A stretch of 64,000 nt of DNA, taken from assembly GCA_002118135.1 (NCBI GenBank), contig BDIU01000063.1:310439-374438 (forward strand). The letters run 5' to 3'. This document shows, one piece after another, positions 1-64,000 of this stretch. Both the position numbers and the translations under genes were made by a program. Position 1 is the first letter of the stretch. The number at the start of each line of letters is the position of its first letter. The notes under the pieces are model-generated. The model saw only the letters and a list, made by a program, of their open reading frames with translations, had not been told where the DNA came from and did not search any database. The stretch comes from Trebouxia sp. TZW2008. Its lineage: Eukaryota; Chlorophyta; Trebouxiophyceae; Trebouxiales; Trebouxiaceae.

Positions 1-395
1 TAGCAGGGCTGCCACCACCTCCACATGCCCCATCTCAGCAGCAAAGTGCAGAGCTGTCTGGCGGCTGCTGCAAACACTGCACACATTTGCCTTCTGCTGA
101 ATCAACATCTTGACCAGGGCCAGCCAGCCTGCACCAAACAAGCAAAACGCCTTAAATGCGCATGATTGAGGTTGGGCAGCTATAACAATGACCCAGACTG
201 CGTAAGCCAGCAGCATCCAGCAGGGCTGGCACCACCTCCTCCACATGACCCATCTCAGCAGCAAAGTGCAGCTCTGTCTGCCTGCTGCTGCAGGTGCTGC
301 ACACGTTTCCTTCTGCTGAATCAGCATCTTGACTAAGACCAGCCAGCCTGCACCAAACAGGCAAAGTGTTTTGAACGCAGTGTATGACCCTGTCA
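1..395 (-). repeat. Tandem duplicate of a terminal ankyrin exon, one copy frameshifted
   Basis: Bases 1-170 and about 212-395 are two copies of the same acceptor, exon and upstream intron. The copy at 128-1 is in frame with the ankyrin gene. The copy starting at the equivalent acceptor (347) has lost one base near 309 (TTTGCC became TTTCC), so its ankyrin repeat is out of frame. It is best read as a dead exon copy within the last intron seen here. Confidence 0.75.
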
Positions 396-3300
396 GCTGG
401 ACAGCGGTAATGATGGTCCAAGCTGGATGAGCTTACTGTTTGCACGCTGCGCTGCAAGTGTGCATTCATATGCCATTTGTAAATCAATCAAAGCGCACGC
501 TGGTGCCTGTCTGTCTGCTGCTGCCAACTGAGTGCAGTATTGCCAGCTGAGTCCAATTCCTCTTTGTGAATTCACATGCCAGCTTGGCGAGCACTGGCAG
601 CATGAGCACCACGTCTTGCCAACATGCAAAGGTAAACAAAAACTAGCATCGATGCAGCTGTGATGTCTGACAGGCACTGCAAGCATGGCCCCTGCTGTAT
701 GCCTGAAGAGGCGGGAAATAGTAGGTCAGCAAGGCTGTGTTAGATGTGCCAGGGAGCTGCATTTTGGGTATGTCCATACCTCCAGCACAAAGCATGCTGA
801 AGGCAGGTTGTTATGCATGAACAAATACCTGACTCCAGCATGCTTTTTGCTGCATGTATGAATGCGCCCAGGAAACAGCTGCCTAGGACATCAAACACAG
901 CCTTGCTGATTCAGATGGGGTTCCTACCCATGCAATAATCCTCGGTCTCCTACCGCTGAATCACACAAAATACAGCCTGGCCTCCGCTGGCGCAAGAAGC
1001 AATGTGCAAGGCTGTGCACAACAGCCTGGCTCAAGCATATTCTTTGCTGCTTGTATGCATTGCCAAAAGCAGCTCCCAGGCACGTCAAATACAGCCTTCT
1101 TGACTGGCTAATGATGCAAGACCTCGTTTTGCTTCCTCTAACAAGTGATGTCATAGCAACACTAAGAAGTGATGTCATAGCAACACTTGAGGCTGCTGCA
1201 TGTTTCATATAGCCTGAAATGACATGACACCCTGACTCCAAGCTGAGCGGGCAGCAATCTGCAGAGAGACAGCATTTGCCGCTGCATGTTTCATGTAGCA
1301 TGAGAAACGAGAGCCAAACTCCCACCTGAGCGAGCAGCAATGTGCAGAGCCGTGCAACCAGCAGCATTGGTAGACTCTAGCTGTGCTCCTTCCTTCAGCA
1401 GACACTGCACAGCCTCAATGTGGCCGCCCTCTGCTGCCACATGCCAGGCTGTGTTGCCGTCATTGTCTGTCACCTCCAGGCTGCAGCCCTGCTCGCTGTC
1501 TGGTGTCAGTAGGTAGTCCATGGCTGCACACGCCCCGCCTGAGGCACCAGAAACAGAATTGACTTGCGCAACACCTTATCTTTTGAGTGGCAAACGGGCC
1601 AGGGAGTCAAAACCAGCATTAAGCTCAACTTGCCAGATTGATGCTCCATGCACGTTGGCCATGATCTGCAGGCTACAGAGAGGCAAGTGATGCAGAGAGA
1701 TGCCAAAGAGCTTCTCAGCCTTGGCCAGCGGTACTGCTTGCCTTGAAAGCAAAGCCATTTGTCATCAATACCTCTGGTTGTCAGGCCAACCTGTCAAAGC
1801 AAACTCTACCTTGGACATCCCCGACAGTCCATGCAAACAGAAACAAAAAGCTTTGGTCGCCTTGCCGGACATACATCATCGATTCCTCATGCGCAGCATC
1901 AGGCAAGACAGCTTTGCCGTCAAGGCAGCGAAGATCATATAGAGCTCAAGCTAGCAGATTGCCAGAAAGTAGCACAGGCAGAGGGCTGTTACCAAGGGCA
2001 GCATAGTGCAGGCAGTCCCTGCCCTGTAGCGTCCTATCACTAGGGTCAGCACCCAAGTTCTGCAGCTCATTGATGATCTCCAGGCAGCCTCCCTGGCAGG
2101 CGCTGTGCAGGACTGATGACCCTGCATGATCCTGAGCCATGGGATCACACCCTGCTTGCAGCAGTGGCCTGAAGGGGCCGATGTGGCCCCCCTCAGCTGC
2201 ACACTGCAGGGCTGTGTATCCCCTTGCGTCCACCAGATGGACATTGGCTCCTGCCTCTATCAGTCTCTCAACCATCTGTAGGGCAAAAGAAAGACAGTCA
2301 GAGCATGGTCTTGGGCCAGGCGGGGTCACACCCTGCTTGCAGCAGGGGCCTGAAGGGGCCTATGTGACCCCCCTCAGCTGCACACTGCAGGGCTGTGTAG
2401 CCTCGTGCATCCACAAGATGCGCATTGGCTCCTGCCTCTATCAGTCTCTCCACCATCTGCGTAGCAAGCTCGCAGATGCTCAGAGCTTGTAACGGCTTGG
2501 CGTGCAGTTGGTTGTGAAGGTTGCAGCAGTGTAGGCCAACTTTGTGCCCACAAGGGCTGATGCAACTGCATGCATGCTTAGTTCTGCATTCTGTTCTGCA
2601 CTCTGCCAGTATTGCAACACCAACAGATCTGCTGCTGTGCTGGCCACAGCTGCCGCTTCTTAGCAGGGGTAGAGGACATGCACATGAAGGCTGTGCAGCC
2701 ACTTGCTTCAATCTATCTCTCCCTACAACACCTGTGCTGCCAGTTGCTTCAATCTATCTCTCCCTACAACACCTGTGCTGCCAGTTGCTTCAATCTATCT
2801 CTCTCTAGAACACCTGTGCTGCCAATGCATCAAACAGCAGAAATGGCAAACATGCGCCTCTCACCGTTATGGTTGATGCTGCATCAAGCTGCTGCAATCA
2901 AGCAGCAGCAAACCAAAACCAAGCTGCGACAAGCAACCAGCAGCACCCCATAAACAATGCAGCACATGACTCTCTGCAAAATGACAACCTCGTTGGTGGT
3001 TCTTGCACAATGCAATGCACAGAAAATGCATGACTCTACCAAGTGCCACATACCTGTCGATGCCCATTGCGTGCTGCAATGTGCAGTGCTGAGCTGCCAA
3101 GTGACCCATGCAACGCTGTCAAGCCAGCCTGCATGTCCAGGGCAAAGCCCGCCAGCAGCAGCTTGTCCATGACCTGATGGTAGCCATGCCGAGCTGCCAA
3201 GTGACCAGGAGACATGCCCTGCTTGTCATAGCTGGACACGTTGCAGCCTGCTATGACCAGCTTAGCCACTACGTCTAGGTGGCCGCCTTCTGCCGCGTGG

Positions 3301-6300
3301 TGGAGGGCTGCAGAACAAACATGGATTGGGTGGGTGGCTTGTCGATTATGATAATTATATACATGTCGAGGCAAATGCTAGGTGGGTGTGGCTCAAGGCT
3401 TGAGCAATGGCAAACTTTGTTGTGAAGGCATAAAGGCACTTCAAACTGCTCAAGCACCAGAAGACATGGCACTGTACAAATAGCACTCTAGGTACAAAGG
3501 CTGAATGTTTGTCCATTTGTGATGCAGCACATTCACACATTTTGGCAAGGCCGAGATATGTTTGACTGGTTTTCGATAGCGGCATGAACACAGTAGTGGC
3601 TCAAAGCAGTAATGCCGTGCTGCCAGGAAACAGCTGTACCTGTCCAGCCATTGGCATCAGCCAAATCCACATTAGCACTTTTTGACCAGAGCTCCATGAC
3701 CACACCATCGTGACCCAGTGCTGTGGCATGATGCAATGGCGTGCAGCCAGCATTATCCAAAGCATCAACCTCAATCCTAGGTACCCGGCATAGCTGGTTT
3801 ACGATGACAGCATGCCCCTGATGCGCTGCCATGTGCAGTGCTGTCAAGCCCTGCACAAACAGTCAAATACTCTGCATCAAAGACTGCGCCAGAGTCTGGT
3901 GCATGGCTGCATTCAAAGTGGTTCTGGAGTGTGGCATTAGCCCACACAAGCAGTGGTCCACGCTGTCAATGAACAGAGGGCACTGGCAACTGGGGTAGAT
4001 CGTGCAGTGATGACATGACCCTCTGTGCATGCCTCTATGTGTGCAGATGACGCTGAATCAACACTGTCAGGCAGGCAGGCAAAATTCTTGATGTAATGAC
4101 TGCATATTTTCCCAAGAAACTGTCCAGCCATCAACAAGTCCTGACTCAGACATACCACAAGCAACAAGGATGCAACAGTGCGTATGCTTCTTGCTTCCAG
4201 CGGTGTATCTGAGTCAGGACGTTTTGATTGAAGGATGCAGTCAAAATGCAGTGGTGGTTCTAAACTGCATTGTCATTACAAATGAGAGCGTCGCCATTTC
4301 CAATGTCTGCTAACAAAGAAGGTCCTGTGCAAGAACACAACAATATCAAGCCAAAGGTGAATGTTGCCTGACCTGACTATTGCGGGCTGTGACATCACAT
4401 GCACCAGCCGCCAGCAGCAGGTCTGACACTGCAAGGTGGCCATAGAAGGCCGCCAGATGCAGAGCAGTGGCGCCATGGAAGTTGACAGGCTGCACAAAGG
4501 GCCCAGACTGGGGCAGGGGCTTGGCGCCCCCTTGGGGGTCCAGCATGGGTAGGGACCCAGCAATGGCTACAAAGTCGTCAGCCCACAGAATGGGGGATTG
4601 GCTTTGGGCAGGGTCCTGTGAAAGGGCTTTCCCGCCATGAGCCATGTTCTCAAGTTCCCTGCGCATGCCAAGGGAGATCTATGCTGCTGGGCTTTTGTGA
4701 GTTACACCTGTTTAAAGGTAGCTGTTGTATCTGTTGTACATGCAGGAACAGGTGATGAGTGTGCGTAGAAGAAATCCTGTCTAGTCAGACAAGCTGTCTT
4801 TAGGCTTCATTGCAAGGACGTGTGAATTCAGCCATTGCTATGGCATCATATCGTTGCATGTGCTTCTAATTGTACGGGATAGCACACATCCCAGGCACAG
4901 GCATGAGCAGCATGCCCCAACGGCAATGCAGGGGCCATACATCTGCATCTTGCAGCTTTGAAACTTGCTAGATTCAATCAGCATCACGCTAACTGACTAA
5001 GAAAGAGCCGTCGGCATGGGCCTCCTTGCTTGATCGCCGGAAGCTTATTATGTGACATGACACCCATGGACAGCACCAAAGTGTACTGCTGCCGTCCGCT
5101 GCTGTCAGGTCACATGCCAACCTTCTGACAGCTAAGCAAGGAAATCATGGACAGGTGTTAAAAGGGAGACAGTCTCAAGCCTGACATGCTCAAATCAATA
5201 AAACCTTGCTGACATGCACCTTGCCTTTAGAGCAGCCACCGGAGCTGCTGCTGACTACACAAGCTCTGGTTATGAGGCTGAATGGCATAGGTTTTCATGT
5301 TTTGGATTTTGCCCTCAAGTACTGCCAGCCCTGCTCAAGCTGGAGTCTATGACTGCTCCAGATTGAGCAGAAGCTAGCAATATCGGCATGTGCGTTCTTG
5401 CATGCCAGCAAAATGCCAGGTCCCGTGACTCTCAACAAGATTGCTCATGCAACACAAGCTTGACACAGTGGACAGCTACGTCAATGGCAGCAAAATCTGG
5501 TGACGTTATACAATGTACATTGCAAGTATGGAGACTGTGTTGACACATGAGCAATTCATTGAACAAGGTTTGCTGCAGTCAGCACTTTGTCAACAGAAGT
5601 ACCTGAAGTCTGCCTGCAGTGCTTTTGTGAAGTCACAGCCACCCAGCAGGAGCTGCTGCACAACATCCACACGCCCAGCAGCAGCTGCAACATGCAGAGG
5701 CGCTCTGCCAAAGCCGTCCTCCATATCCAGCATCTGCTTGCCAACAAATGCATGCTTTACATGCACAGGCACTGCATCAGGTGCAGCAGCCTGTGTATTG
5801 CTATTGACAGGAGCCGCGTGATGCATCTGGGCAGGCAGAAACTGTGGTGGAACACTGGCTGGAAAGGGTATCCCAAATTCCTGTAGCCTCTGCCTCATTT
5901 GGGGCATAGCCATACCAAGAGAATTGAACATTGCATCTGAGCTGGCAAGGGCTGCTGCTGGAAAATGCCCTGAGCCCCAGCTGCCCTGAGGTACAGCTCG
6001 TTGCGAGTCATCCCCGCCAAAGCCGTTCTGCATCCCAAAGGGATGTTGCTGACGAGAAACAACATCAGCCTCTGATTCACTTGAGCTATCGCTACTGTCC
6101 ACAACCTCGCTGATGTCGCTTGAATTGCTACTGCAAGTGCTGTCTCGGCTGCTACCTTCCTTTGCCAACTGCTGTAGCATCTGCGGCGTGTTGACCAGTG
6201 TTGTGGGCGCTGAGCGCTTCTTGCTGTTCACTCTGGACCCTGAGCTTGGCTCCTCAGTCAATGCCTGTGGAGGGGGCTCTTCTGCGTCTGGCCCTCTGGC

Positions 6301-7806
6301 CTGTGCCCTGCTGGCTCGCTGTACCTGGGCCTGCAAGGACTCCCCAGGATGCAGGGGCCAGATCATGAGAGGGGCAGATTGAGCGCCCATCTGACCCCAT
6401 CTAGCAGCTGCTTTCCTGGCTTCTGCGTCAGCGTCAAGGGCAGAGGCTGGTTGGATGGGTTGCTGAGGGGTTGCAATTGGTCTGCCTGAAGTGGTTGGGG
6501 GTGGGGGCTGTGATGAGGGGGCCGCGCCTCTGCTGGCACCATCGTCCCGCTTTATGCGTCTGTATATGCGCCTAGGTGCTTGCTGCAAAACAGAAGACAA
6601 ATTCAGGGCCGCATGCAGTGTGCAGCTGAAGTAAATGCACAAAAGGCTGCAGATAGGGGCAGTCGTCACTGAACCTCAGTGCCAAATGCTGCTTGTGCAG
6701 AGCTGCCGTTCTTCAGGTGCTCAAGTTGCACATGCAGCTGATTATTGTTCATTCAAACACAAAATGATTACAGGAAAGTTTGTTTTGTACAAAACATGCC
6801 TCCTCATTGCAATGCAATTGCAGCATGTCGTTCAGGCTGTGGGTCGAGCATCCCACCTGCATTTGTGGCGCTTGCTTGATGGGCCAGTCAGCAATTGCAG
6901 TGAAGTACGGCAGCCGCTGAGGCCCATTGCTGCTAGAGGGAACACTGTCCTCGTCTGACTCTGCGCCAAACATGCAGTCCTCTGCTTCTTCAAAGCTCAG
7001 GCTTTTCAGGTTGTCAAAGCCACTGGCTGCTCCTGGGAAGGAATTTGATGCTGCAGCCATGAGGTTGCCAAAGTTTGGCTGTGGCCCATTTGAATGACTT
7101 GAGCTTGAGGCGTTTTGCAAGCCAGGGAGTGTGGACCTGCAGGGGGAATAAGATGCAAACCAGTCATATCAGAATGCCATTTGGGGCCAGGGCTTGTTCA
7201 GCCCTTGACTGAATTGGTTCCTCCAGAGAAGTACACAAGACATTGAGCAAATTACACCACATCAAAGACATGTACAATCATGTGCCTCGAATTAGATGCT
7301 GTCAATACTTTGGACACGAGCTGATAAGCTGTTGCATATATAGTATGCGCATTCTGCCCGCAACAATTGGCACAAGAGTCGAACAAGTTTTGCATATGCA
7401 ATATGCTTCTTGCTGATGCTGTATGTGCATTGGCGATGCTGAAAATGCCAGCAACAGTTCAAAATGGAGCGAGCTTGGACAGTGCTCAAATGAAGTCACA
7501 CCTAGCCCAGGAAGTTGAAGAATCCAGGTCATTGAGTTGTTGGCCAGAGTGCCTGCTGATTTTGAGCATTGCTGGCACTTCACCGCCAGCTGATTGCTTC
7601 CACTGCTTCCCAAATGTTGCTGTCAGAGCAGGAGCCCAATTGGCGTCAACAAACCTGTCCCAACTGTCCTGCATATTGCGCACAACTTCCTCACAAGACA
7701 GGCAGGACACAGCTTGTTTTCGCAAAAAGGGCTTGTGTTTGAGCAGCAGAATTGTGAGCTGCATCAGGCCCGCACCTTTGCAGGCTGTGAATATGGCGTC
7801 AGTCTG
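1..7806 (-). CDS. Ankyrin-repeat protein (3' end beyond the window)
   Basis: A protein with a long low-complexity N-terminal half followed by ankyrin repeats, which are protein-binding scaffolds; the partner is unknown. Exons on the minus strand: 7806-7502, 7136-6857, 6582-5603, 4658-4373, 3850-3640, 3307-3054, 2278-1993, 1523-1326 and 128-1. Every junction is GT-AG and keeps the frame. The 6582-5603 exon is rich in Ser, Pro, Gln and Ala with a basic patch (RRIYRRIKR) and ends in the first repeat (APLHVAAAAGRVDVVQQLL). The later exons each add one to three repeats, for example TALHHAAEGGHLDVVAKL. No catalytic domain is visible, and the C-terminus lies off the left edge. The N-terminus is uncertain: an in-frame ATG at 7764 is the simplest start, but the CpG-rich DNA at 8340-8480 suggests a further 5' exon. 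Several exons have decayed duplicate copies in the introns (separate entries). Confidence 0.8.
975..1345 (-). repeat. Repeated copies of an exon end plus 5' splice site
   Basis: The real exon ends at 1326 with coding for ALHIAARS followed by the donor. Similar segments recur downstream in the same intron at about 1262-1237 (reads SLQIAARSAW) and 1015-975 (reads ALHIASCA). Both are degenerate and neither is needed for the gene model. Confidence 0.55.
2318..2456 (-). repeat. Truncated duplicate of the 2278-1993 ankyrin exon
   Basis: It has its own acceptor and codes for MVERLIEAGANAHLVDARGY and onward, almost identical to the exon at 2278-1993. It loses homology after LLQAGCDP and reaches a stop with no donor. 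If included it would truncate the protein, so it is probably a pseudo-exon or a poison exon. Confidence 0.7.
2703..2825 (+). repeat. 41-bp tandem repeat, three units
   Basis: Three head-to-tail 41-bp units (2703-2743, 2744-2784, 2785-2825). The first two are identical and the third has small changes. They lie in an intron of the ankyrin gene. Confidence 0.9.
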
Positions 7807-9213
7807 CTGCAGTGCTCGCACATGTATGGGCTGTGCTGGCCGCTGTGTACTGCATGGTTATGTGACTGGGGTGTCCAAGCTTTACTGTGACCACTGTCTG
7901 TCATGCCCAGGCAGCATGCTGTACTACACAGTGGTGGAGCATGTCTCTGCAGGGCACAAGGTATGACTTACAGGAAAGAAGGCTCAACAAAAGCCAGCGT
8001 CTGTAGGTGCTTGACCATACACAGCACTAGACAGCATAGGTGCAACTCTGGTTGCATGATGAATGACAGTGGACCATGCAATCGATCACCACACTGATAC
8101 ACTGGACTCAGGTCAGTGCAAACACTACAAGTCGACTACGCGGGGCGTTTACCAATAACACGACATGGGGAACCAGGTGGTTGGCAACTGGACTCGCTCA
8201 CAACATCAAATCTGCACTGTGCATGCTGCAAGGTGATCGCAAATCACCTGAACACAATAGGGCAGCCAATAACAGACCGCACAGCATCAATATGCTGTGT
8301 TCACAGCGTTTCCCACAAGAATCGAGCTTGACTCGCGTGTATCTCGTATAGTATCGGCGCGCCCGCGAGCAAAGCAGATCAATAGCACTTTTTGCACTGC
8401 GTCGAGTACTTGCAAGCTGCCTCCTGTTGACAACGACCGCGACTATTGTGGCGTCAGTGCGCAGGCTTCCGGCTAAAGGGCCTCGCTAAACCCGTGATGA
8501 TCAGGGCACCCCCTGGCAATAGCCCCTGCATGCCAAGTTGAACCTTGATGGGTCAATGTTGCTGCTCTGACATGTCAACTTTCCTCTGTTGCCGGAACAT
8601 GCAGCATCCTGAAGCTCACTGTGTTAACACACGGTGCATACAGTGCACACAGGGCAAAGAATCAGGAGAGCAACACACTGCTTGTCTGGTGACGAGTACC
8701 TGAAAATGCTGCATGCAGCCGGTGCTACACATTGTGATGATACCAGATGCAAGTGTGACAGTAACAACAGTACGATAGGACAGTGTAGAAGTCTCCTGTT
8801 TACAAATATGATCGACGTAACATAGTGGCGTGACAAGGTCAAACAGTGATGACCTGCAGGAATCAGAAACAAAACAATGACTCAGAACCTTCAGGCTTTG
8901 AAAATTTATTGCTGAGTCATAAGCAGAAAGAGTATGTAGACAATTATCAGCAGCGTCCAAAAGAACTACGAAAACAAGTTGCAGAAGCAATACACATGTT
9001 TAAAATTGACGCTCTTGCATCAGTAAATGAGTTCAAGACTCACACTCTTCGATACTATTGCTGACCACACATGTCAGCGTGGTGATACCTGTAGGCCTGG
9101 AAAGGACGTACTGTGCATCATGAGAGACAAGGGCAGGTTGTGCATGACTAAGATTGCACCGCACTACCAGCTGAGTTTTGCACTGGCATGGACTATGGTC
9201 AGCGATGCGCTTC
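7807..9213. other. Intergenic stretch, 5' of the ankyrin gene and 3' of the 321-aa gene
   Basis: No gene can be modelled with confidence. Positions 8340-8480 are CpG-rich and probably mark the ankyrin promoter. Candidate ankyrin first exons begin at minus-strand ATGs at 8018 and 8287, but I could not choose between them. Positions 8846-9064 hold a plus-strand 72-codon open frame that is clearly more AT-rich than its surroundings and codes for a lysine-rich helical stretch (HKQKEYVDNYQQRPKELRKQ); its origin is unknown. Confidence 0.5.
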
Positions 9214-14924: not shown

Positions 14925-17900
14925 TCATAATGCATCTGGTACAGCCTTTCTGATTGAGTTCAGTTGTATGGTCGGCGGCAGCCCTTGCATGGTCCGCCTG
15001 ACCTCTTGAGCTACGACTTGCGCCATGGTCCTGTACGACACCTCTGTCACCCCAGCTACATGCGGTGTCATCACTACCCTGTAAGCACTCATCAATATGT
15101 GGCAGGGTTGCTGTGTGGCTGCCACATGGTCATCAATCTGCAACAGGACTGCTGTGTGACTGCACAGTGTGGTACATGGCCTGCAATGGCAATAGGTGCA
15201 GCTGTCATGTCATGCTGTCAGAGGCAACAAAGCAGCACTTGCTCCTGACAGCTCTGGCCTTAATACTTGAACAATGAGCAGACTCAACTTCCACTTGTTA
15301 CAGCATACAACAATGGTCATAGACAAAAGATTAACAAGTTCATGCTACATCCTGGGCTGCTTGTATTCACAAAGGTCCCCGCGACAATGCCCAAGAGCGT
15401 AGACAGCCTGGTAAACCAAGACTTGTGCCAGACACACCTAGCAACATATGCTGGAAAGCGCCACTTGTTATTGTCATTAAATCAATGTGCAGCAGACAAC
15501 CCACTTGGGATGGGTGGTGACTTGATCTTGAGGGTCCCAGGGCTCCTGCCACTGCACATCTAGTCCAAGGGCACCCAGGTGGTCACTGTCTAGCCCTTTG
15601 CGTACAGCTCCATAGTCTAGGAGGCCCCCTGCACCAAAGACTCCTCTCTCTACAACAAGTGCGTCCTTAATCAAGCAAATTGTTCTTATACCCAATTGTC
15701 CTTACTCAAAGATACCATTTCAGTCAGCAGGCAGTGAGTAGTTCCCAATTGCCTGGTTTAACAATGAGAATGTCCTTGCATCAGGTGTCCTTATAAGCGA
15801 AAGTTACTGTACAGGCATGTACATGGCATTGGACAAAAATGCTTGCCTGTCCTACAGCAGAGTCAAGGGCAGCGTGGAACCTCATCTGCAAGCATTAGGC
15901 CAATGACGTCCTGCATATGGTTTGATTGGCATGATTTTCTGCAGCAGATTGCAGTGGTGTTGCATGACGTAGCACACTGCTCATCATACGCTCAAGCAGT
16001 GCAACAGCTACAGTCAGGATTTACGGAGCGCCAGCGCAAACAGCAAGGCATGCTGACCAAGTAATTCTGCTGCTTTCTTTGCTGGTGTCAGTTGCCGGGC
16101 TGCCTTCAAATACAGAGGCTCCCATTATGACGCCTAACGGCATAGACCTGATCTTCTTTTTCTCTTGTCAGTTCAGTGCTGTTCCACATCATAGCAGTGC
16201 GCGTCAGCTCAGTCAGCAAGCAGGGGGCAAGTCTGAGCTGCACCAGTGGATGCAGCGTGAGAGCAACCAGCAAGGCGTACTTGGTGATCCCTTGGGCAAG
16301 AGGTAACACGTCATACCGCTCTGGGATGAAAGGATAGTGGCAAAAGGCTACGGGCTGAGAGGAAAGCGGTGAAAAGTAAGGGGCAGTATGGCTTTAAAGT
16401 TGCTGCAGCATATCACCTCACCTCGGGCTACATTGATGACCCGCACTCCTGGTTTGCACGCTTCCAGGAATGCTGTATTTACCATGCCTTTGGTGAGTTC
16501 AGTCTGTGAACATGTCAGGACCACCAAATCTGCCTGTTTTAGCAGCCCATGCAAATCCTGGAAGCTGCCTTTCTGCTGCAAATCAGATTCCAGTGGGGCA
16601 TCTGCTGGGTTGGTGCCCCAAGGGCTGCGCCGAACCCCTATCAGCTTGACATGGAAGGGCTTCAGCCTGCAGCCCCAGTCACAGGACGTTGTGAGTGCTG
16701 GTATGGTGGTTGACAACGCATATAGCTAGCTTGGGCTTGCAGCCTTTTTGCTGCAGATCAGATTCCAGTGGGGCATCTGCTGGGTTGGTGCCCCAGGGGC
16801 TACGCCGCACCCCTGTTAGCTTGATATGGAAGGGCTTCAACCTGCAGCCCCAGTCACAGGACATTGTGAGTGATGGCATGGTGGCTGACAGCGCATATAG
16901 CTAGCTTGCGCTTGCAGCCTTTCTGCTGCAGATCAAATTCTAGTGGGGCATCTGCTGGATTGGTGCCCCAAGGGCTATGCTGCACCCCTATCAGCTTGAC
17001 ATGGAAGGGCTTTGAACTGCAGCCCCAGTTGAAAAATCTACCATCTGTCTATACGAATGCATCCTAGTCAGGCTGAAAGGCCTTGCTAGGTACGTGTAGT
17101 CACCAAGCAACTGTCTTCAAGGAAGGTGCTTCAATGCAGTTGAAGGAAATTGTCAGTGATACCATGATGCATATAGCTAGCTTTAGCCTGCAGCCCCAGT
17201 CAGAGGAGAATTTTCATTTGTTTGATTTGGCATGTATCTTTGATAATGCATATAGCTAGCCTCAGCAACAACAACATTGGCAAGTTGTAGCCACAGAGGA
17301 CAAGCGCATGCAGACGATGGACAAGTTGCATGGCACTACAGCTTGCCAGTAGGCCTGATGTGTTGATGACTGCGGACAGTGTAATGGCTTGATCATTCAT
17401 GCCATGCGTGTGAGATCAAGAGTGCTGCGAAATCATGCCCTTGCACAGACAAGAGTACATGTAAATGTAAATATTGATAAAGGTAGCATGGAATTGAGCA
17501 AACGGAACATATGTCATGTAGACAGAGTATGCATGGCAGATGACATGAGCAGATGACATTGAAATGCATTGAACACAAAAGCACACGGAGTGAACTGAGG
17601 CTTGCCTGGGTATCAGCTCCTTTGCTATGTTGCCAAACCCCACAATGAGAACACACTTGCCGAACAGAGTTTCACCAATTGGGACTCCAACCCTTTTTTG
17701 CTGTATAGATTGCTCCATGACTTTCTGCTGCTTGAGGGTTGCCAGCATGAGATATATGGCATGCTCGGCACATGAAAGCGCATTGCCTGTGCTTGCGCTT
17801 GGGATATTACTCACCCATATTCCTTGTTCTGTTGCCTGCATAAACATGCAGAATGCATTTGACACATTGCTGATTCATGACGATCGCTGTGTATCACAGT

Positions 17901-21206: not shown

Positions 21207-24200
21207 TCAGAGTTGGTGTGGGGGAAGCTGTTACGCAGGTGGGCAGGCAGGTGGCTGTCATCTTTGGCCTTGCCTCCTCCACGCTTCTCCACTGGCACAA
21301 ACTCTCTCTCCATGCTGCCAGAGTAGATCTGTATACAGAAAGTCAGCTTTGTCTTCTGTAATGTAGTGATCGCTTTAAGTGAAATAGTAACATTCTTCTT
21401 CTTTGCATATTAGAATGATAAGGTCATCTCTCATACAACAACAGGTGTGATTTTCACGCCACCAAGGCGGAAGTCTCTAAGATCCGCTACACCTGCGCCT
21501 TGCATCTAGAGTTGTATCTGCAAAAACAATGAGATGTCCATTGCATTCACATGTGTGCAATTGTCTGCCTGTGGTGGCTGTCACGCTGCCAAAGGGCAGG
21601 CATCTAGGCACACATTCAGCATGACGAATGGTTGCAAGGACCGCATAAGCATTGCATGACACCATATCCTGACAGTCGTACAAAGCATACAACTACTATT
21701 GAAGCATACTGTTGGCCAAGTCCAAAAGCCAAGCCCAAGTTCTAAAGGAACTTGCCAACATAAGCAGACTGCCATGGCCATGCAAGTAATGCCATGAATT
21801 GTGAGGACAACTGACCTGTCTGGGTCTGGAGATCTTCTGCAAAGGCTCCTCAGCCATCTCCTTCCACTGAGCCACCCAGCCGACAGTCCTGGCCACTGCA
21901 AACAGTACTGTGTACCTGCATGCCCCCTCAGCACTATGAGCTTGATTGTGCCAAGCATGCAGGGCACTTTCTGTCTTTGGGATGCAAGCAAGCATGTCGC
22001 CTGCATTGCCTGATATGTCAGCTACTGAACATCTGCAGATTAACCCTGGCAAACAGGCATCATCAAAAATGGCAATGCAAAAGCCTGAAAGACAACAACA
22101 AATGCTTGCCCATGCCTTTTCAGCACCAGACCTTGTCAAACATGAGCGCGCCTGTATGACTATGTGACTTTAACAGGCAATCAGATCTGCACCAGTGAAC
22201 GCTTTGACCATCTACAACAGCTGCTGAAGAGACCACACGTCCATATTGAACGGCTCTTATGGCATGCTGGCCTCATGTTGCATATACAACCTGTTCAGTA
22301 CAATGAAAACAATGATACCTGGCAACACTCACAAGCACCAATCGAATTGGGACAAAGCAGTGAAAGCTGTGTAGACTGTAATTGTCTGAAATGCAGTGCT
22401 TACATGGAAATGGGAATGCCCATGGCCCTGAGCACAATGCCAGAGTAGAAGTCAACATTGGGATAAAGCCCACGCTTGACAAAGTACTCATCACTGGTGG
22501 CCACATGCTCCAGCTCCATTGCCACCTCCAGCAGCTCATCCCTGCATACCATATCAACATTTGCATAACCTTAGCAAGACGTTATGTCGCAGACATTGTC
22601 ACGTCAGGGGAACCTATGAGTCTAACCCCTGCAGACCATGGGTGCTGGGCTCGTGAATCCCCAACAAATAACATTTGCAGACAATTCAAGATGATCATGA
22701 CTGATGTGCTGAGGCGTAGAATCTGTTTGTGTCTTGAATGTCTTGATAAACAGACAAATATTTGGTTGCGCCATGCCAGCCTTCACGCCAGTGAGCCTGT
22801 GATGCAACGATGAAAGCACTGAAATGCAGATATGATGAGGAGTTTGGTAAGAAGTTGTCACGTTGCCCTCCAGAGCTTCTGTGATGATGCAGGGACTTGA
22901 GCCAGTGTCAACTTGTGTTACTGCCATGGTGATGCATGCAGACGGGAAGCTTTAGGGCAAAGGTAGTGCACCAGAAGGCATGCAGTTTGCTGCTTTTCAA
23001 CCCTAGCAGACACAGCTATGATTGAAACAAATGAGAATAAAGATTGGCGTTGCATTGCCAGTCAAGAGCTTACTTGATGCCGACGTGCTCCAACACCTGG
23101 TCACAGACCTGCTTCATGATTTTGGCTCTTGGGTCATATGTCTTGTACACACGATGCCCAAAGCCCATCAACCTGCAAGCCAAACAGACATTTGTTGCTT
23201 TGAAGCCAATCGTTCTTTGCCAGCAGGCACAGCATGAACAGCCTGCCTGTGACCCCGTTATGGATGCTTGGTAGCCTAGACACGACAGCACAAGTTGTCA
23301 AGTCCTCTGTAGAATACCTGCAGACAAACGGCTTCACCATTGCCTGAACAAAGCGCAGCAGCTACTTCACGCAGCGTTTGTGATACCACATTCAAACCAG
23401 CTGCAAATGCAAGACATCAAAAGCTGCTCCTGTGACACCCCTAGGGTCACAAAAGCTCCTCACACACTAGCGATGTGCAGGGTGTAGCGAGTACAAAGCA
23501 CACCTAAAGGAGTCATTCTTGTCCTTGGCGCGCTTGATGGCTTCAGGGATCTTGTCTCGGCTGCCGATGTCTTGCAGCATGCGCAGCACAGCCTCATTGG
23601 CACCACCATGTGCAGGCCCCCAGAGAGCAGCAATGCCTGAGGCTATGCAGGCAAAGGGGTTGGCCTGGCTGGACCCTGCATGGAACACAGGCAATGAAAT
23701 TGGTCTCCAAGCAGCACCTGAAGAACAGCACCATTGGCACCGTCGTGTGCAGGGCTCTACAGTGCTGCAATGTCCAAGGCTATGCAAGCAAGGGGCCTGA
23801 CTCAAGCGTGCATACAACACAGGCAATGAGCTTGGTCTCGAAGCTGCTAGTATCAACAGCTGAAGGTGGACTGCACTGCTGATGCGCTGATCCTGCTGCC
23901 ATGATGAGCGCTGACATACCTCATCCTGACACGATGCAGACTGAAGCATAGCAGCTGCTACTGCTCCAAACCATGTGTATTGTGAGTTTGGTAAGTGCAG
24001 CATACAATGCAAGGCGACGAGGCAAACAGCAGACAGTAACATGTCCTTGAGGGACACCTGAAGACACAAACTTATTACGAACTGCTCATGTTCTGCAATC
24101 TGAGCCTTACGTGTACAACTTACAGTCAAGCAGCTGCAGTGCTCTGCATGCATACAGCAGACCACAGTTTGGACTTGCAGGTGCTGCTTAGCTGGAACAC

Positions 24201-27675: not shown

Positions 27676-27771
27676 CCTTTGTCACAGATGCAATGGCCTA
27701 CTTCAAACCTTTGTCACAGATGCAATGGCCTACTTCAAACCTTTGTCACAGATGCAATGGCCTACTTCAAA
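27676..27771 (+). repeat. 32-bp tandem repeat, three identical units
   Basis: Units at 27676-27707, 27708-27739 and 27740-27771 are identical, indicating a recent expansion in non-coding DNA. Confidence 0.95.
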
Positions 27772-27914
27772 CCTTTAACTTGCTATTAGTTTTGGCATGA
27801 AACAGGACCCAGTGGTATCTGCTTTATGCAGCTTGCCAGTGTGGCAGAGGAGTACGCTCCATGCACAGCAACCAAAAGGACTTTATGCATTGCACTCATA
27901 CACCTATGCGACAC

Positions 27915-35343: not shown

Positions 35344-38300
35344 TTACTCACCCTGGCCAAGCTGTAGGTGATGCACAGCATTTGCTATGTCCTCCTTGCT
35401 CATTGCACCCACTGACGCAAAGCCTGAGCCTATGGTCCACAAGACCACCTCAAACACTTGACTGGGGCCAACTGTAGCTTCTGGGCGCATCTGCCTGTGA
35501 GAGATTTCAGCTCCTAGCTGATCTCTTGACTGGGTGGTGGCTGATTGAGATGATGCCAGCAGGTAAGCAGCACAGATCAAGCCAATTGAGGTGAGCAACC
35601 TGTGACAGGTAGCAAAGCCTTTAGCCCAGTATGCTTTTTATGAATACTGCATGGAGGCACATCAGCCATTTGCATTGCCTTCAATCTTGGCTGCAATAGA
35701 TAGCGTAGCCTTTAGCTCAGCATGCTCCCATGCTCTTCAAATAGTGTTGATACTGCATGGAGGCACTCAGCCATTTGCCTTCATGCAGCATCCCTCTAAA
35801 CTTAGATGCAATCGATGGCAGAGCCTTTCACCCAACATGCTATGACACCCCTGACATGACCCTAATGCTGCATGGACGTGCAATGACCATTTACACTGCT
35901 GCGCAACTTGGCTGCACTAGGTTACGACATGCCAGACAAAAGCTTAGATTGGCTCACCCAGAGTCTGTGTCAACTGGCACAGCGCCTTCTTGACAGGCAA
36001 TTGCCCACGTGGCGAGGTCCTGCACTGCTGGCATCATGAGCTGCACCACATCAGCATCAAGCAGCTGACTCAACTGTACCCCTCTGCAGCAGCACCCCTT
36101 GTCAGCACCGTAATCACCTGTAACCACCTGTACAGATGCACCCCTGGTCAGCACCGCAACCACCTGTGATCACCTGTAACTACCCATGACCACCTGTACA
36201 GATGCATGCTGCCACAGGCATAGCATGCATAGATGGTTGAAATGCAACACAAGCATCAGCAAGCTGAGGTGTGGTTTGCCAGGACTGCTGCTGCTACAGT
36301 GACAAGTTGCAGCAAAGCAGATGCATGCAGCCACACAGTATGGACATGCTCAATCTTTGTCCCTGTTTGGATCCTCTGCTTTTACGCTGTTGCACTGTAC
36401 AGTCAGCACATGTGCTTGCATTAGGATGAGCCGCAGGTCGATTGTCGAGACCTACTCTGGAGCTGCTATACCCTGAAGCAGTGCTGCAGCAGCCGCTAGG
36501 TCAGCCTCACTTGAAGCTTGCTGATTGCTGCTGTACTTGGCTTGCAAGATTTGTGTGGCTGTGCTTGCAGCTTGGCATACATGCTGGACCATAACGCTTA
36601 GCACCTGCACAAACAAGCACCTGCTGAGACAGCTGCAGTCAGAGCCACACACATTATATGCTCTTTCCATCCTCCAAAGCTTGAGGGACCAGCCAAATGA
36701 CCTAATGATCATCACGTTATGAGTCATGTTCACTGCTCCCAACAGAAAAGATGGATGAGTTTGAAGAAAGCAAACAATGCAAAGCGCTTTGACAAGGATT
36801 GTGCATCAGCATCAGCAACAGATTGCTTGCTTGGAGGTGGATGGAGTGCTGCCAAGACTTGTCTGTGCCAGTTGCACTCAATACAAGGTCAACAGCATGT
36901 CAGTGCAAGCTTACTTGAGGCTGCAGCAGAGTCTCAAGCCAGCGCTTCTGGGTGCCAGGTTCACTCATGGCAATGTCATCATCAGAGGGCTGAAGACTGA
37001 GCAGCAGGCCTGGCAGCAGGAAGGGCAGGGCTGCTCCTGCAGTGCCCTGGACTAGCCAGGGCAGCAGCGCTTGCACCCTTTTTGCATGAGCATTTGGGAC
37101 CTCTGCCATAAATCTGCAGTATCAATCAAACTGTGTTTGGGCAAAAGGAGGGAATCAAACTATATTTTGGGCAGAAATGGGAGTTTGTTTCAACATATAT
37201 ATAGTGAACGTAGGCAGCAGGAAGGGCAGGGCTGCTAATGCAGCGCCCTGCACCAGAGCAGCAGCGCTTGAACCAATTTTGCGTGAGCAGCTTGGGTCCT
37301 CTGATGTAAATCTACAAGGTTACAAACCCTAAAACCAGAATATCAAGGCGTACTGCTTCATCCTGCCAGCTGACGAGGCATGGCTTCATTATCTTGACAA
37401 CACGCTAAGCACGACACATGCAGCTTCTTGGCATGGGCATTTTGAACCTCTGCCATAAACCTGCAGCATCAATCATATTGTGTGTGTTTGTCAATCTTGG
37501 TAGCAGGAAGGGCAGGGCTGCTGCTGTAGTGCCCTTGATCAGTCAGGGCAGCAGTACTTGCACCCTTTGGCATGGGCGTTTGGCAGTGTGCCAAGAACCT
37601 GCAGCATCAAGATCTGACCATGTTTTTCCAACATTGGCAGCAACAAAGAGCGGGGCTACTGCTGCTGTGCACTGCACCAGCCAGGGCAAAAGTGCTTGCA
37701 CCGGTTTGGTATGGGCATTTGGCACTTTTGCCACAAAATGTGTCTCATTTTGATGGTGTGCCTCTGGATATTGGCCAGGCAAAGGGCAGCTTGGCACACA
37801 ACGCAGCACAGTTTCAGGCAAGGAGCAAAGGCTTGCCTGCCATAGGCTCGAGTGGCAGCCAGCAGCCAGGTGGGATCTTGGCTTGCCTTGGCTGGGTCAG
37901 CACGCAGCAGCTCCAGGAACTGCAGCACTGTCTCAAAGGCCTCAGTCAGGCCCTGCATGGCCCTTTGTGCAACCCTGCATTGGAGGCACTTTGATCAGCT
38001 TTGCTTTTGACATTGTCAGTGCTTAATGCAAGAAGTCATGCGTTGCACTGCCCTCTGTGCAATTCTGCATGACGACATTGTGATGACCTTTCCTGTGACA
38101 TTTTCAATATGCAATGCTAGCAAGCTATGCAGCGCTCTGCTGTTTGTGCACTCCTAGCGGTAGGCTCAGCGATCCACTTGTATGCCCCTTGGTGCCTTGT
38201 ATTGGCAATGTCATACGTGACACATGAGCTATGCAGTACATTCGCTGCTGCATAGCTGACTCACAACTGTTTTGCTGCACAACATTGACGTTGCCTGTGC

Positions 38301-41300
38301 AGCAAGCTTACCTGTCGCTCAAAGCTACTGTATGTTGAGAGCTGCCTGCTTCTGCCATTTCAGAGTTTTCTGCATCACTGGCCAGCGCCTCAAGACAGCC
38401 CTCAAGCAATGACAGCACAGCTGGTAAGACACCAGCTACTCTGTACTGTACAGCTGCATTGCCAATGTGCTGCCTAGCACTACTTGACGGCTCTGTATCA
38501 GTGTCCATTGCTTTGTTTGTGCTGTCATTTGGGTGTTGACTGTCTCCCTGACTCAGCTGAACGTTGTTGTCTTGCATGCTTGAGGAAGAATCAAGTTGTG
38601 TGGTTGTTGGGCTGGCATGGGCTGGTTGCACAGCAGAGGCTGAACTGGCAGAAGTTGTTTTGTCTGGGAGATGATCATCCACACTGCTGCCAGGGTTCTG
38701 ATCTTCTGAATGGTTCTTGATGTTGCTGTCTGACAAGGGGTCAGATGTGCTGCCTTGTAGCAGCGCCAATGCATCATTCAGCAAGACAGAAGTTTCCACC
38801 TTGAGGATCTCAACCAGGATCTGTAAGAAGGACCCTGTTGTTGAAGCCTGCAAGGACCAGCAGCAAAGCTTTCACATGTCTGGCTATAGTTCTCAGCTAG
38901 CCGGGCTAGCAGGCTTCTGGTAAGAAGCAAAAGTATCAGTGCTGGCTGTATAGCTGCCATTTAGCAGGTCACTTGACATAACAGCAGCTGAAGTGCACTG
39001 GCAAGCAATGGTGGTCAGCTGCTACTTGACAAATCTTGTTGAGCTGACACAATGGCTGAATGAGTGCGTGTGGCATGCTGCATGTGCAGCAATAGAGATG
39101 CCAGCAAGGACGTGCACAGAGCCCTGCAGAAGCCAGACTCAACAGCCAGCGAAAGCAGAGAGTCAAACAGACTCACAGCAAAGACTGAGCCTGACAGCCA
39201 CACAGACAGGACTAGCTTCAGCACTGCAGCTACGAGGTGCAAGGCAACATGACAAAACTGCAGCATAGGTGCTGCAGGGAAGGGTAGAGGCTCACAGCAG
39301 AGACTGGGCACAACACCCAGTCAGATTGCACCAGCTCTAACTGCAGCAGCCAGACGCAAAGCAGGACGACAAAGCCAGTGGACAGTGCTGCATGCAGGAA
39401 GACAGCAGGGAAATGCATGCACTCACAGCTGAGACCGGGCCTACGAGCCAGTCAGGCTGAACAATCTCCAGCACTGCAGCAGCCAGACGTAGGGCAGAAT
39501 GGCGCTGCTGCTGCCCAACGCGGCTGCCGAGGATCAGGTACAGTCCGCTTCGCACGTCCCCTGCCCAGCCTCCGTTAGGCTTGGATGCAGCTGCTGTCAA
39601 AGCCAGTGCTGTGTCATTGTTCTGCATGTCATCAAGGGTCTCAGGCAGAGGGCAAGGTTACAGTAGACAATGGCAGCAGCAGCATCAAGCCAAGTTGCAG
39701 GATCGCTGCATTCCACAGAAGTCAATGTTGATTAGAGATATAGCACCTGCTTGCTAAGTGAAGAATCGCATAGACATGCATGGAGGTTATACCTGTGCAT
39801 CAGGCTTGACACCACTAGGGACTTGATGACTGCACTGCAGAATGGATGCAAAGATGACCAAAACTAGCACAAGAGAAAGGGCATCATTGGGGACATTACC
39901 TGTGACAGAGGCAAGGGCAGCAGCAGCAGCAAAGCCTGCAAGGCTTCTAGCTGCTCAGCTGCTGCATCTGTGCTTGAGCTTGCTGCTGCTTTTGACTGCT
40001 TGGCATCAGGGGCATCAGGCTGCTGCTGCTTGCCAACTGCTGGCTGTGGTAATGGGGCATTCAGCAGCTTTGCGAGTACAGGAATCGCTGTGCCAGCTGC
40101 TTCCAAAGTTTCTGCAAGAGCATTGTCAGAAAGTGAAGGCATGCACACATATGCGAGCCAGACAGCAGAAGCTTTGCAAGCCAGTTTGCCCAGATTGCAC
40201 ACAACGCCATCACTGGCAGCAGCTGGCTCAGGACAAAGCACCTCAGCTGGATTGCATCAATCCATGACCTGGCCCACAAGCTGTCATGACATCTTGAGCT
40301 AATGGGGCTGCTTGTTCAAGTAGAGACAAGCGTGGCAGTAAGATGTGATAGTGTTGTGGTATGAGACCTGGCAGCGACTCTGACCTCTCATCATGCTCAA
40401 GCAGGAGGGCTAGCAAGCGGACTGCAGCAGCTTTCCAGGGCTCGTTATGTGCAACTCCGACCTGCATAGCATCAGGTTCGGCCTGCCTGGCTTGGCATCA
40501 GAGACAACGCAATGATCTTCATCAGGCAACACTTGCTCATCCTTGCACTGGCAAAGCATCAGGAAGCACAGATTGTTACAGCAAATGAGGAATGTCCGTG
40601 ACATGCAGGACTCCATGCTTATTGACAAAGGCTGTAGAGATTCAACAGTGGCATGAGTTACCAAGGAGTAGTGAGATGATGACTGGAATGCAGCATGATC
40701 CACAGCACACATTCGTCCCAAGACGCAAGCCCTGCATCTCAGTACGCAAACATATTGAAGCTTTTGTGTTTAGGCGACAGAATCTCAATCTGCTTTTACT
40801 GACATAACCTCCTATGATGATGCCTAACAGCAAAGACCTTTTTATTTCTTTTCTTGTATGTGGCGCAGATTGAACAGGGAGCCCACTGACCTGCAAAGCT
40901 TGAGCAGCAGCCATGATGCCGCCAGACTCTTGCGTAATGACAAGGCCTTCATTGCTGGCAGCAGCAATATGCACCAAGCAGTCCAGAGCATCACCGACAG
41001 CACTGCTGTCAGCTTGCAATGATACTTCAGGTGACTCATCAGCTTGCTGCAGCTGCAGAACAGCACTGATGCCTCTAGCTCTGACAACCTGTAAGCAATC
41101 AGTCACTCATTGACAATCACTGTCTTAGTGACCAAACGAGGGGCCATACGAACAATGCCAAATAGTCATCTCGCATCCATGTGCACAGTGCAGCATGAAG
41201 CATTTGGCAGCTGGCGATTTTGTGCTGCTTGTATGTGGCAATTGCACTGTCCATGCATCACTGTCAAAGGCGCACATGCATCTTGGAATGTTGGAAGCTT

Positions 41301-45379: not shown

Positions 45380-45392
45380 GCATTTGCAGACA

Positions 45393-45397
45393 TGTAA
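45393..45397 (+). terminator. TGTAA poly(A) signal of V-ATPase F
   Basis: TGTAA, the usual green-algal poly(A) signal, 14 bp after the stop codon. Confidence 0.5.
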
Positions 45398-60900: not shown

Positions 60901-63900
60901 TGCAATGCAACAATGCTATGCATATGCAGCCACAGCCAAGTAACACAATGTAAGAGTGGCATTTTGAAGATGACCTTGGTCTTTGTGGGGTCAGATACTG
61001 GAGCAACTAGGACTTCTGAGTTTGGTCTGTCTTTGTCCCTGATCTCAATGAAGAAGTGGTCACCACGGTGCTTGACATCATACTCAACGTCATTCACACG
61101 TGGCAGAATGACTTTCCAGACAGCATCTGGCTTGTCTGCTGGCAGGAAGCGAGTCTCTGATGTCACAGAGGACCCTGCACCCGTCGGAGGAACATGAAGT
61201 CAGCCATAGTGTCATTTCAAGGAAGGCAAAAAGCAAGAAACTCAGGAAACACCTGTTGCCATCACAGCTGTGTGACTAAGAGTAAGAATTGGAGTTGGCT
61301 GATGTGATTCACAGGGTTTAGAACACGTAGCGAAGAACAAACCAGGCTCCGCCATGCAACCCTCAAGCTGTGTGCTGTTAGCTGATGGTGATACAAGTCA
61401 TGTGTGCTGATTTGCTCTGTCCACAGCTGCCATGTAGTGACTGAAGGTACAACACAGCAATGTGCTGTTGTTGGTGGTGTCATGCACCACTGTAACAGTT
61501 GCATGAAGCTCACCAACTTGAATGATCAGTAACTTGTCATCGCGAGACTTGCCAAGGCCTACGTACATCTGATCATCCTTTTCATGGTATACCAGCTTGT
61601 CTTCTTTAGCAGTGTCACCTATATGATGCCGCCACACCTGCCATACATTTGACAAGCCATAAAACAGGTGCATTTGATATGACTTCAGAACATCTATCAA
61701 ATTGTACAATGGTCAGCTCAACACACGCAATCAAGTTGGCTGGAGTGGACAGAGGCCCGGAGCTTGAGAATGATTCGGTGTATGTAATCAGAGATGCAGT
61801 TGAGGTGAACATTGTGTTTGTGCCTGAGTTGATGATCTGCCTATGAAAAGAAGGAAAAAGAAAAGTCTGCGCCGTTGGGCGTTATAACGGGAGTCTCTGC
61901 TTTCAGAGGCAGCCCGAGATATGCATACCTTGAAAGGGCGGTCAAGCTTGTCCTTGGTAACATAGAACAAGGTCTGGTTGTCGTTTGCCCAAGCCACATT
62001 GCCTGCTGTAGCCTGCAGCACTCAGCCGCAAGATCAATACCCATCCCAGAAGAACAAGGCTCACAAACTGTGTTGAGTACCTGCGCTCATTGAGAGCTGC
62101 CTGTTGTAAAAAGCTGCCTGTTGTAAGGAGCTGCATGTGACTGCATGTCAGCTTTTTAAATAGTCATCCATGTCAGTTGTGTGTGATCTATCCAACGTTG
62201 TTTGCTGTCACCAAGTACAGGTGAATATCATGTTCCTTGTGACGCCGCAATAAGCCAGAAAGGCGGTGATGATGTGCTTGCATCTAGCTTATAGCAGCAA
62301 TGATCAACAGCTCAGGCAGAGCCAATGAGAACGGCGCTGGCAGCAAGCTGCTGTCAGCAAAATTCAACAGTTCACAGGACAACAAGAGCAGGAAAACAGG
62401 AAAGAACTTGTTGCCCTGATTGTGATCAAGTCAGTTTCACGTGGAGCCAACGATGACGACAACTACAGCACGAGGGTTTGCTACCTTGATAGGCTCCCTC
62501 AACATCTCTTTGTCTGTGCCAACCTCCTTCACATGCAGGGTGTACTTCTCATTGCCTGAGGTGTCCTCGCCATATGCCACCAGCTTGTGGTTAGGGGAGG
62601 GCTCCAAGCCGCTAGTCATGTAGAAGTCATAATTTGCGGCTTCAGCATTCTCATCCAGCAGGATCTCTTCAGGCTCACTTTCATCCATTGTATCCGTTTC
62701 TGCATCATGCTACCAGGTTGCTACCCAAGGCAGGGCAAAAGTGCTTGCAGCAAGTCCAACACTGAGGTTTCAAATGAGTCTGTGGGCAAGCAAAAGGCAA
62801 GTAGCCGAGCAAAAGGTGGATGGCCTTGCATCAACAGCCAAAGTCTGCTGCTGCACTGACCTTGTGCTGCACAGGGATGCGCCTCATGTACACAGTAAGT
62901 CGCACAGCGGTCAACTCAACCAGCAGCTGTGTCTCGCCCTTGGAGAGCACTTGTGATATCAACAACAATAGCTGTGAGCACTGTTTTCAGTGATGCCAAG
63001 CAACTTTTCCTTCTTGTGTTTGCCTGCACACACCTGAAGGAGGTCCAATATTGGCTGGCAGCTTTCTTCTGCAGTGGACTCGGTACTGCTCGCCCTCCAA
63101 TGTGCGGCTGTAATAGAAGTAAGGGCCGTCCCTGCAGCAACAAAACTTCTAGATAAAAACAACAGGTGGAAAGCATGGCTTCACCATCAGGAAGTAGCCC
63201 ATTGACATGCCTAGCAAGGCTAATGACGCGCATGCCAGGGCGGACGACAATCAGCAACAGCTTCCTTTGAGCTGCAGGAGATGTCATGACGCTCTGTAGA
63301 AGACTGCATATTCAGCAAATGCTCACGAAGCCAACTTATCATCACAGTAACTACATCAGTACAGCTCTCAAGTGCAGCTGATTAGTATGCATTCAGGCAA
63401 TGAGTGTGTACCTGACTGGTGCAGACTGATCTGCCTCCTGGATTCTGGCTCGCAGCTCCCTGTACAGCTGCTCCTGCAGATGCTCTGTGTTCTCCAAAAC
63501 ATTGTGGCAGTAATCGGTCTCAGCCTGCATGACAGCCAGCCAACCAGGAAATCAACTGAAAGAAATCCATTATTGTGGCAGTAGTCATTTTCAGCGTGCC
63601 TGGCAGTTGGTCAATCAACTTGAGGAAAGCAATCATTGTGGCAGTACCCATTTCCAGCCTGCATGACAGTTAGCCAACCAAGAAATCAACTTGAAGAAGT
63701 CCATGATTGTGGCAGCAGTCGGTCTCAGCCTGCATGACAGCCAGCTAACTCAGAGATCAAGTTAAAGATACCCAATTTTGTGGCAGTAGCCATTTGCAGC
63801 CTGCATGACAGCCGGCCAAGGAAGAGATCAACTTGAAGATGTCCATTATTGTGGCAGTATACATTTTCAGCCTGCATGACAGCTGGCTAAAGAATAGGTT

Positions 63901-64000
63901 CAAACAAAGTGCCACGACAGTAGAATGGCAGAGCGCTTTCCGTCGTGAACATGTGCAAGAAAGTGCCAAGGAGTTAAGCCGGGTATGACAGCAAGCAGGA
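57973..64000 (-). CDS. Oligopeptidase B (prolyl oligopeptidase family S9A), 5' end beyond the window
   Basis: Serine peptidase cleaving short peptides after basic residues. Exons seen: 63524-63412, 63131-63034, 62699-62485, 62012-61929, 61637-61514, 61174-60975, 60726-60634, 60281-60079, 59791-59627, 59258-59024, 58775-58611, 58449-58334 and 58150-57973. They total 663 in-frame codons including the stop. The beta-propeller half holds [34 protein letters not shown] and [20 protein letters not shown]. The catalytic half has [15 protein letters not shown], the nucleophile [10 protein letters not shown], the Asp in [14 protein letters not shown] and the His in [10 protein letters not shown]. The window enters the protein at a residue pair equivalent to the early N-terminal helix; the first exon(s) lie to the right. 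The acceptor of the first visible exon is preceded by a six-unit repeat array. Confidence 0.93.
61841..61917 (-). repeat. Copy 3 of the dispersed element
   Basis: On the minus strand it reads GGGCTGCCTCTGAAAGCAGA, then GACTCCCGTTATAACGCCCA and ACGGCGCAGAC plus a pyrimidine tract. It is the best match to the copy at 16097-16171 and lies in an oligopeptidase intron, in the sense direction. Confidence 0.6.
63490..63900 (-). repeat. Six-unit ~70-bp array of an exon's 3' splice site
   Basis: The acceptor and first codons of the oligopeptidase exon at 63524 (CATGCAG|GCTGAGACC and TACTGCCACAAT) recur at about 63595, 63660, 63731, 63802 and 63870. The copies read variants of AETDYCHN such as [16 protein letters not shown] and AENVYCHN. 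Spacing is 65-71 bp, and an AG acceptor is retained in most units. Confidence 0.85.

Follow-up and report, generated by a model that had tools for sequence, protein, structure and literature searches.

Tandem duplication within genes is a described source of intronic sequence. One example spans an intron-exon boundary in a potato RdRp gene (PMC4974935), and tandem duplication appears as a source of new introns in Drosophila in the available portion of another (PMC2891723). Green algae offer a different case: in the part of the Micromonas report that could be consulted, introner elements are intron repeats that lie close to splice sites and form a dispersed family (PMC3488318). Here these systems are compared with repeats at the exon edges of a Trebouxia genome, beginning with a 64-kb stretch of DNA at C62:310439-374438 (the window) and extending to other contigs. 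Internal duplication of genes and of exons was reportedly treated by Gao and Lynch in 2009. The Trebouxia repeats share with it a local duplication within genes, but an entire exon lies in a duplicated stretch in only 5 of 193 internal exons, and most copies are partial. Whole-exon duplication, or the creation of mutually exclusive exons, is not the general case, and those five exons may qualify.

In the potato gene, as here, a tandem duplication over an acceptor puts exon-edge sequence beside an intron; the difference is that a single event created a new intron, whereas in Trebouxia many events lengthen introns that already exist (PMC4974935). More broadly, intron gain by AGGT tandem duplication resembles the present case in that a short tandem duplication inside a gene yields intronic DNA, to judge from the available parts of both reports (PMC4974935, PMC2891723). 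Its signature, a lag equal to the intron length with the donor aligned to the acceptor, was found in 0 of 227 Trebouxia introns, and AGGT intron gain is rejected as the origin here. The sequence-only reading knew of no description of recurrent exon-edge duplication in green algae, and a search of the open-access literature, outside which most subscription papers lie, found no description of it. In the accessible text of one Trebouxia genome report neither 'tandem' nor 'intron' occurs (PMC11523091); in that of another paper 'tandem' is absent and 'intron' stands solely in the title of a reference (PMC12712428). The first of these gives, in the part seen, sizes of 63.08-73.88 Mb and GC contents of 49.64-51.05% for six published Trebouxia genomes (PMC11523091); the GC content of the window is 49.7%.

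How common are such duplications? The 181.8 kb sampled, which come from 13 contigs of a single Trebouxia genome, contain 58 clusters of local direct duplications. The sample consists of the 64-kb window, 3 kb beside it, eleven 10-kb stretches of other contigs and a citrate synthase paralogue on contig C80; a duplication-free stretch (L009) is counted in it, and no extra sequence is counted for two loci of the citrate synthase family, L003 and the separate window pieces L002-L008. The repeats are almost exclusively direct: over the 13 sequences together, local pairs number 118 in direct and 1 in inverted orientation. A self-BLAST of the window shows 24 local direct pairs, 1 local inverted pair and 4 distant inverted matches. 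Local direct duplications recur in 10 of the 11 stretches from other contigs and inverted pairs in 0 of the 11, and a local duplication process that extends beyond the window is well supported within the sample, in which 10 kb carry between 0 and 11 clusters. Whole-genome HMM matches (18, 134, 98 and 25; 275 in total) were inspected by eye for neighbouring repeats of identical model positions. At least 6 clear neighbour pairs (contigs C73, C130, C352, C100, C44 and C328) and 3 doubtful ones (C57, C273 and C473) are present among the 275, the count being a lower bound because short decayed copies fall under the threshold.

The copies are mostly arranged head to tail. With loose extension, the aligned length is at least 0.9 of the lag, i.e. 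fully tandem, in 37 of 56 clusters, 0.7-0.9 of the lag in 6 and below 0.7 in 13. Two clusters at one locus (L014), with lags of 480 and 581 and perhaps part of a mobile element, are excluded from the lag and head-to-tail counts, which leaves the 56; the same locus is excluded from the flank, alignment-end, decay-simulation, intron-length, tile, placement and detection, AG/GT and AGGT counts.

Exon edges resemble their own introns far above chance. When 100-bp exon edges were aligned with their own intron at a Smith-Waterman (SW) score of at least 35, matches were obtained for 17 of 247 introns on the donor side and 21 of 247 on the acceptor side, as against 0 of 2,470 per side with the introns of other genes; these counts are derived from printed fractions and from gene models that predate decoy masking. 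Reverse-complement controls gave 0/247 and 1/247. The repeats are thus more than incidental, as had been claimed. Copies on both the donor and the acceptor side are confirmed as well, and the further claim of both strands holds for the sample: the window's 10 exon-edge matches, 7 at acceptors and 3 at donors, all belong to genes on the minus strand, and plus-strand cases occur in other loci, with 24 of the 42 splice-site-crossing clusters on the plus strand and 18 on the minus strand. Among the 13 clusters of the window, 9 touch an exon, 3 are confined to introns and 1 is intergenic.

Might the repeats instead be a dispersed family, an introner or some other mobile element that sits in introns and merely resembles local exons? 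The four distant inverted matches in the window are weak and dispersed, as such a family would require, but they lie away from the relevant exon edges. The copies moreover hold the gene's own coding sequence, and each of three stretches searched across the 68.5-Mb genome (527 contigs) matched its own locus only, in a search that skipped very common words. For these three a dispersed family is ruled out, their units being private to the locus, unlike the Micromonas introners as presented in the available part of that report (PMC3488318); as a general account it is scarcely credible.

Exon positions come from a purpose-written gene finder, an explicit-length HMM with splice-site matrices and unsupervised training on sampled sequence. 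The sites it learned are CAG/GTAAG for donors (the slash marking the junction; 8% are GC donors) and TGCAG/G for acceptors, and its model proteins match in part the Pfam families Neurochondrin, 2-Hacid_dh_C, UDPGP, Peptidase_S9 and ankyrin. Without masking, the finder called several decoy copies as additional exons. Once a single copy in every pair had been masked, canonical proteins returned for the ankyrin gene, the dehydrogenase and the citrate synthase on C80; masks at three places in the window were placed by hand from protein evidence. After masking, internal exons have a median length of 154 bp (n = 193) and introns one of 352 bp (n = 227); boundary counts were made mostly without genes having fewer than 300 coding bases. 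This behaviour is a warning for annotation, as a gene finder takes decoy copies for exons. It also invites the suspicion that the whole pattern is an artefact of home-made models, which did initially accept decoys, or of the assembly. Most of the best pairs share 67-92% identity and are therefore not assembly stutter; the spectrum of lags described below is free of annotation; and the tested exons are backed by Pfam matches and Trebouxia homologues. An artefact is very improbable.

The window illustrates the forms that the duplications take. In the ankyrin gene, on the minus strand, the acceptor at 128 with the start of its exon (2-146) has a copy at 347 in the upstream intron (219-365), at a lag of 217 (feature 2..365). 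That feature is clipped by the left end of the window. The same gene has an intron-only direct pair (828..1098, lag 197), a donor-side pair on the minus strand (1192..1349) in which the donor is at 1325 and the copy at 1242 is without GT, and, also on the minus strand (2124..2459), an acceptor with exon start whose real copy extends to 2275 and whose duplicate, 89% identical at a lag of 179, extends to 2456. An intron-only tandem repeat with a 41-bp unit in 3.3 copies is located at 2691..2833. The 2-hydroxyacid dehydrogenase gene (16564..17207, minus strand) carries 2.7 head-to-tail copies of a 175-bp unit over the acceptor at 16666, with copies of that acceptor at 16841, 17016 and 17187; a short additional copy on the same strand (17180-17207) falls within the feature. 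In the citrate synthase gene (23574..23847, minus strand) the acceptor at 23675 has a decayed tandem copy at 23807, with a lag of 137 and two stops. Between genes, a 32-bp unit occurs in 3.2 identical copies (27676..27776).

The neurochondrin gene has an intron-only pair (35644..35841, lag 106) and three edge duplications on the minus strand. The acceptor at 37113 has four copies in the upstream intron, at 37311, 37460, 37598 and 37635-37737 (feature 37011..37737); the acceptor at 37974 has a copy at 38064, 70% identical at a lag of 90 (37944..38150); and the donor at 39426 has a copy at 39295, 67% identical at a lag of 119 (39169..39497). In the oligopeptidase gene (63497..63897, minus strand) the acceptor at 63524 has five copies in the upstream intron, a 71-bp ladder with lags of 71, 134, 205, 276 and 347. 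Of the six genes that the sequence-only reading had named, these five carry exon-edge copies, and the USP gene (44905-52677, UDPGP family) yielded none at an SW score of at least 34.

The proposal that one copy fits the conserved protein and the others are decayed is borne out in the citrate synthase gene, whose model is 88% identical to a Trebouxia sp. C0005 protein: the real copy scores 172 against a Trebouxia homologue and the decoy, with its two stops, 89. It fits the dehydrogenase less well. The piece of this gene that was compared shares 62% and 75% identity with Trebouxia A1-2 and C0010 proteins, and its three copies score 150, 147 and 134. As all three are free of stops, the real one can be identified only because it is joined to the remaining exon.

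A favoured unit size near 150 bp is the most interesting new element, and it is the density of the duplications together with this size mode that is new relative to the systems above. The lag of the best pair is 125-200 bp in 34 of 56 clusters, 60-124 bp in 14, 201-275 bp in 5 and greater in 3, where a truncated exponential expects 27% at 125-200 bp (P = 2e-7). An ungapped lag spectrum that uses no annotation (26/32 identities at lag d) has its minimum at 100-119 and its peak at 120-199, falls at 200-239 and climbs slightly at 240-299; a block-shuffled sequence control gave zero runs. As shorter lags are also detected, a limit of detection does not by itself account for the peak. The favoured size is presumably about that of a nucleosome repeat or an Okazaki fragment. 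The median exon, at 154 bp, is also close to the size mode.

Are the duplications biased toward exon edges, as was proposed? The tile test gave no clear bias. In this comparison, which the sequence-only reading had itself named as its refuting check, boundary segments of 50+50 bp and intron tiles of equal length were searched for copies in the adjoining 250 bp of intron; on the donor side the proportions are 20/172 (11.6%) for boundaries and 46/485 (9.5%) for introns (Fisher p = 0.46), and on the acceptor side 28/172 (16.3%) and 54/485 (11.1%; Fisher p = 0.08). Exon-only segments had a copy in 19/190 and 25/188 cases. A boundary bias drawn from raw placement, with 35 boundary-spanning cases against 24.6 expected, was abandoned when decoy masking reduced it to 31 against 24.3 ± 3.4 (P = 0.026).

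Counting events, with copies collapsed, gives a moderate excess on the home-made gene models. An exon is touched by 39 of the 52 in-gene clusters (75%), as against 49% by geometry, since with exons of about 154 bp and introns of about 352 bp about half of such units will touch an exon. Pairs that touch an exon also stay detectable longer because their exon side is conserved; simulated detection favours them 1.19-1.45 fold and raises the expectation to 54-58% (P = 0.001-0.01). The excess lies at lags of 119-260 bp, where 32 of 37 clusters touch an exon against 53% by geometry, or 63-69% once detection odds of 1.5-2 are allowed for (P = 0.001-0.014). Below 110 bp there is no exon excess (5/12), and in the window alone the excess is not significant (9/12 against 53% expected, P = 0.11). 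Duplications confined to an exon number 0 of 58 clusters, against 2.9 by placement.

The ends of the alignments bear on the same question. With strict scoring, 29 ends fall inside the intron, 1-20 bp from a real junction, against 9.2 ± 3.1 expected (maximum of 300 shifts, 19), and 0.54 of the ends within 100 bp fall in that 1-20 bp range, compared with 0.19-0.40 in simulated decay. Loose extension weakens this to 17 junction-side ends against 9.7 ± 3.1 (maximum of 400 shifts, 21); with the same extension, outward ends from 40 to 1 bp before the junction, inside exons, number 7 against 19 expected. In 19 gapped cases the intron flanks of the real site and of the copy are alike in 7 (p ≤ 0.02, loose scoring) and show no clear likeness in 12, though the exon parts are 72-91% identical. 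The junction ends had raised the idea of an exon-limited, RNA-templated copying, which is rejected: looser extension removes most of the effect and simulated decay explains part of it.

Two of these observations, the exon excess at lags of 119-260 bp and the ends just outside splice sites, together with a size mode that we take to be near the nucleosome repeat, would suit a duplication that truly prefers exons or their edges. For example, nucleosomes might sit on exons and breaks fall in the linkers just outside them, such that about one nucleosome repeat is copied head to tail, repeatedly, into the intron beside the exon. If this chromatin-templated process were real, one mechanism would give the 125-200 bp mode, the exon-touching excess and the ends outside splice sites, and introns would grow as a side effect of where nucleosomes lie. 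The tiles, unbiased for donors and marginal for acceptors, the window taken alone and the short lags all tell against a true preference, which is doubtful; the chromatin version of it is likewise a tentative suggestion. A bias toward exon edges is not established. Geometry, purging and unequal decay account for much of what looks like bias, and they leave a moderate remainder that they do not explain away.

What becomes of the copies? The AG is kept in 27 of 43 junction-spanning copies, against 24.6 expected from flanking identity, and the GT in 16 of 29, against 17.4. Retention at about the level of the flanks indicates neutral decay, and selection was seen neither to destroy nor to keep decoy sites among these 43 AG and 29 GT copies. 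Of the copies that span the junction, 25 of 43 at acceptors and 9 of 28 at donors still have a splice-site-like matrix score of at least 4, and the suggestion that the duplications supply decoy sites is upheld. Copies might then be kept for a function, as alternative or regulatory splice sites; the 25 acceptor copies that score like real acceptors and the open frame of the dehydrogenase copies would agree with this. But AG and GT are retained no more than the bases around them, the citrate synthase copy has two stops, and copies are present at all levels of decay, all of which makes a function improbable.

The median length is 608 bp for introns that include 30 bp or more of duplicated DNA (n = 49) and 307 bp for the others (n = 178), an association to which the greater room that long introns offer to duplications may also contribute. 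To this extent the claim that the process lengthens introns is supported. In the sample, duplicated stretches account for 16.3% of the bases in introns and 8.5% of those in exons.

The observations are probably best explained by frequent local head-to-tail duplication of short units, mostly 125-200 bp, placed without proven regard for splice sites. Such units would be duplicated across the genes of the nuclear genome. A duplication wholly within an exon would break the protein and be lost, and one within an intron or crossing a splice site could survive. From the anatomy of the loci we infer that the crossing kind is tolerated because a complete site stays on the full exon and the spare edge leaves with the intron. 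The spare copy would then decay neutrally while the real exon is conserved, and exon-edge copies of all ages would come to lie in lengthened introns. Survival through splicing and the mutational step, for which slippage or short-patch repair had been suggested, are putative parts of this account. Some figures stand against a plain tandem model, namely the exon-touching share (39/52 against 54-58%), the junction-side ends, the 12 of 19 unlike flanks and the 13 of 56 clusters whose alignment covers under 0.7 of the lag.

A size mode of this kind suggests a physical ruler, for which the nucleosome, the Okazaki fragment and paired nicks are candidates. Should the density and the favoured size prove general in Trebouxia, local tandem duplication would be among the main sources of intron length in this common photobiont of lichens, and its genomes would provide many graded cryptic sites with which to study how the spliceosome ignores near-identical decoys.

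The sampled sequences L013, L014 and L017 lie outside the window and carry their own local coordinates. In L013, three stretches within or close to a gene (4601-5630, 6604-7752 and 7768-8643) hold satellite-like arrays, whose units measure about 192, 180 and 163 bp; neighbouring units are 79-89% identical. In L014, long repeats with lags of 480-607 bp include exon-like sequence (3793-4906 and 8518-9511). A mobile element is one possible source of these repeats, a tandem gene another, and most duplication counts exclude them.

The sole local inverted pair found is in an intron of the ankyrin gene (window 725-817 and 1015-1104, 75% identical); direct pairs are also present in this intron. Self-BLAST of the window gave four weak, distant inverted matches of 71-84% identity, situated away from the exon-edge repeats: 14063-14124 with 27971-28032, 15406-15453 with 27966-28013, 15682-15777 with 34843-34944, and 16096-16170 with 61844-61916. 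A dispersed element or low-complexity sequence might account for them.

Over all introns modelled by the home-made gene finder, the acceptor consensus is strong (TGCAG|G), and about 8% of donors are GC rather than GT. The finder joins the oligopeptidase gene and a downstream gene, which we take from its sequence to be LUC7-like, into one model (window 53417-65175) that is probably two genes.

Duplication can also encompass an entire exon. In L017, a 181-bp exon together with both splice sites is copied head-to-tail (3951-4131 and 4150-4331), with just ~18 bp between the copies, either of which is a candidate spliced exon.
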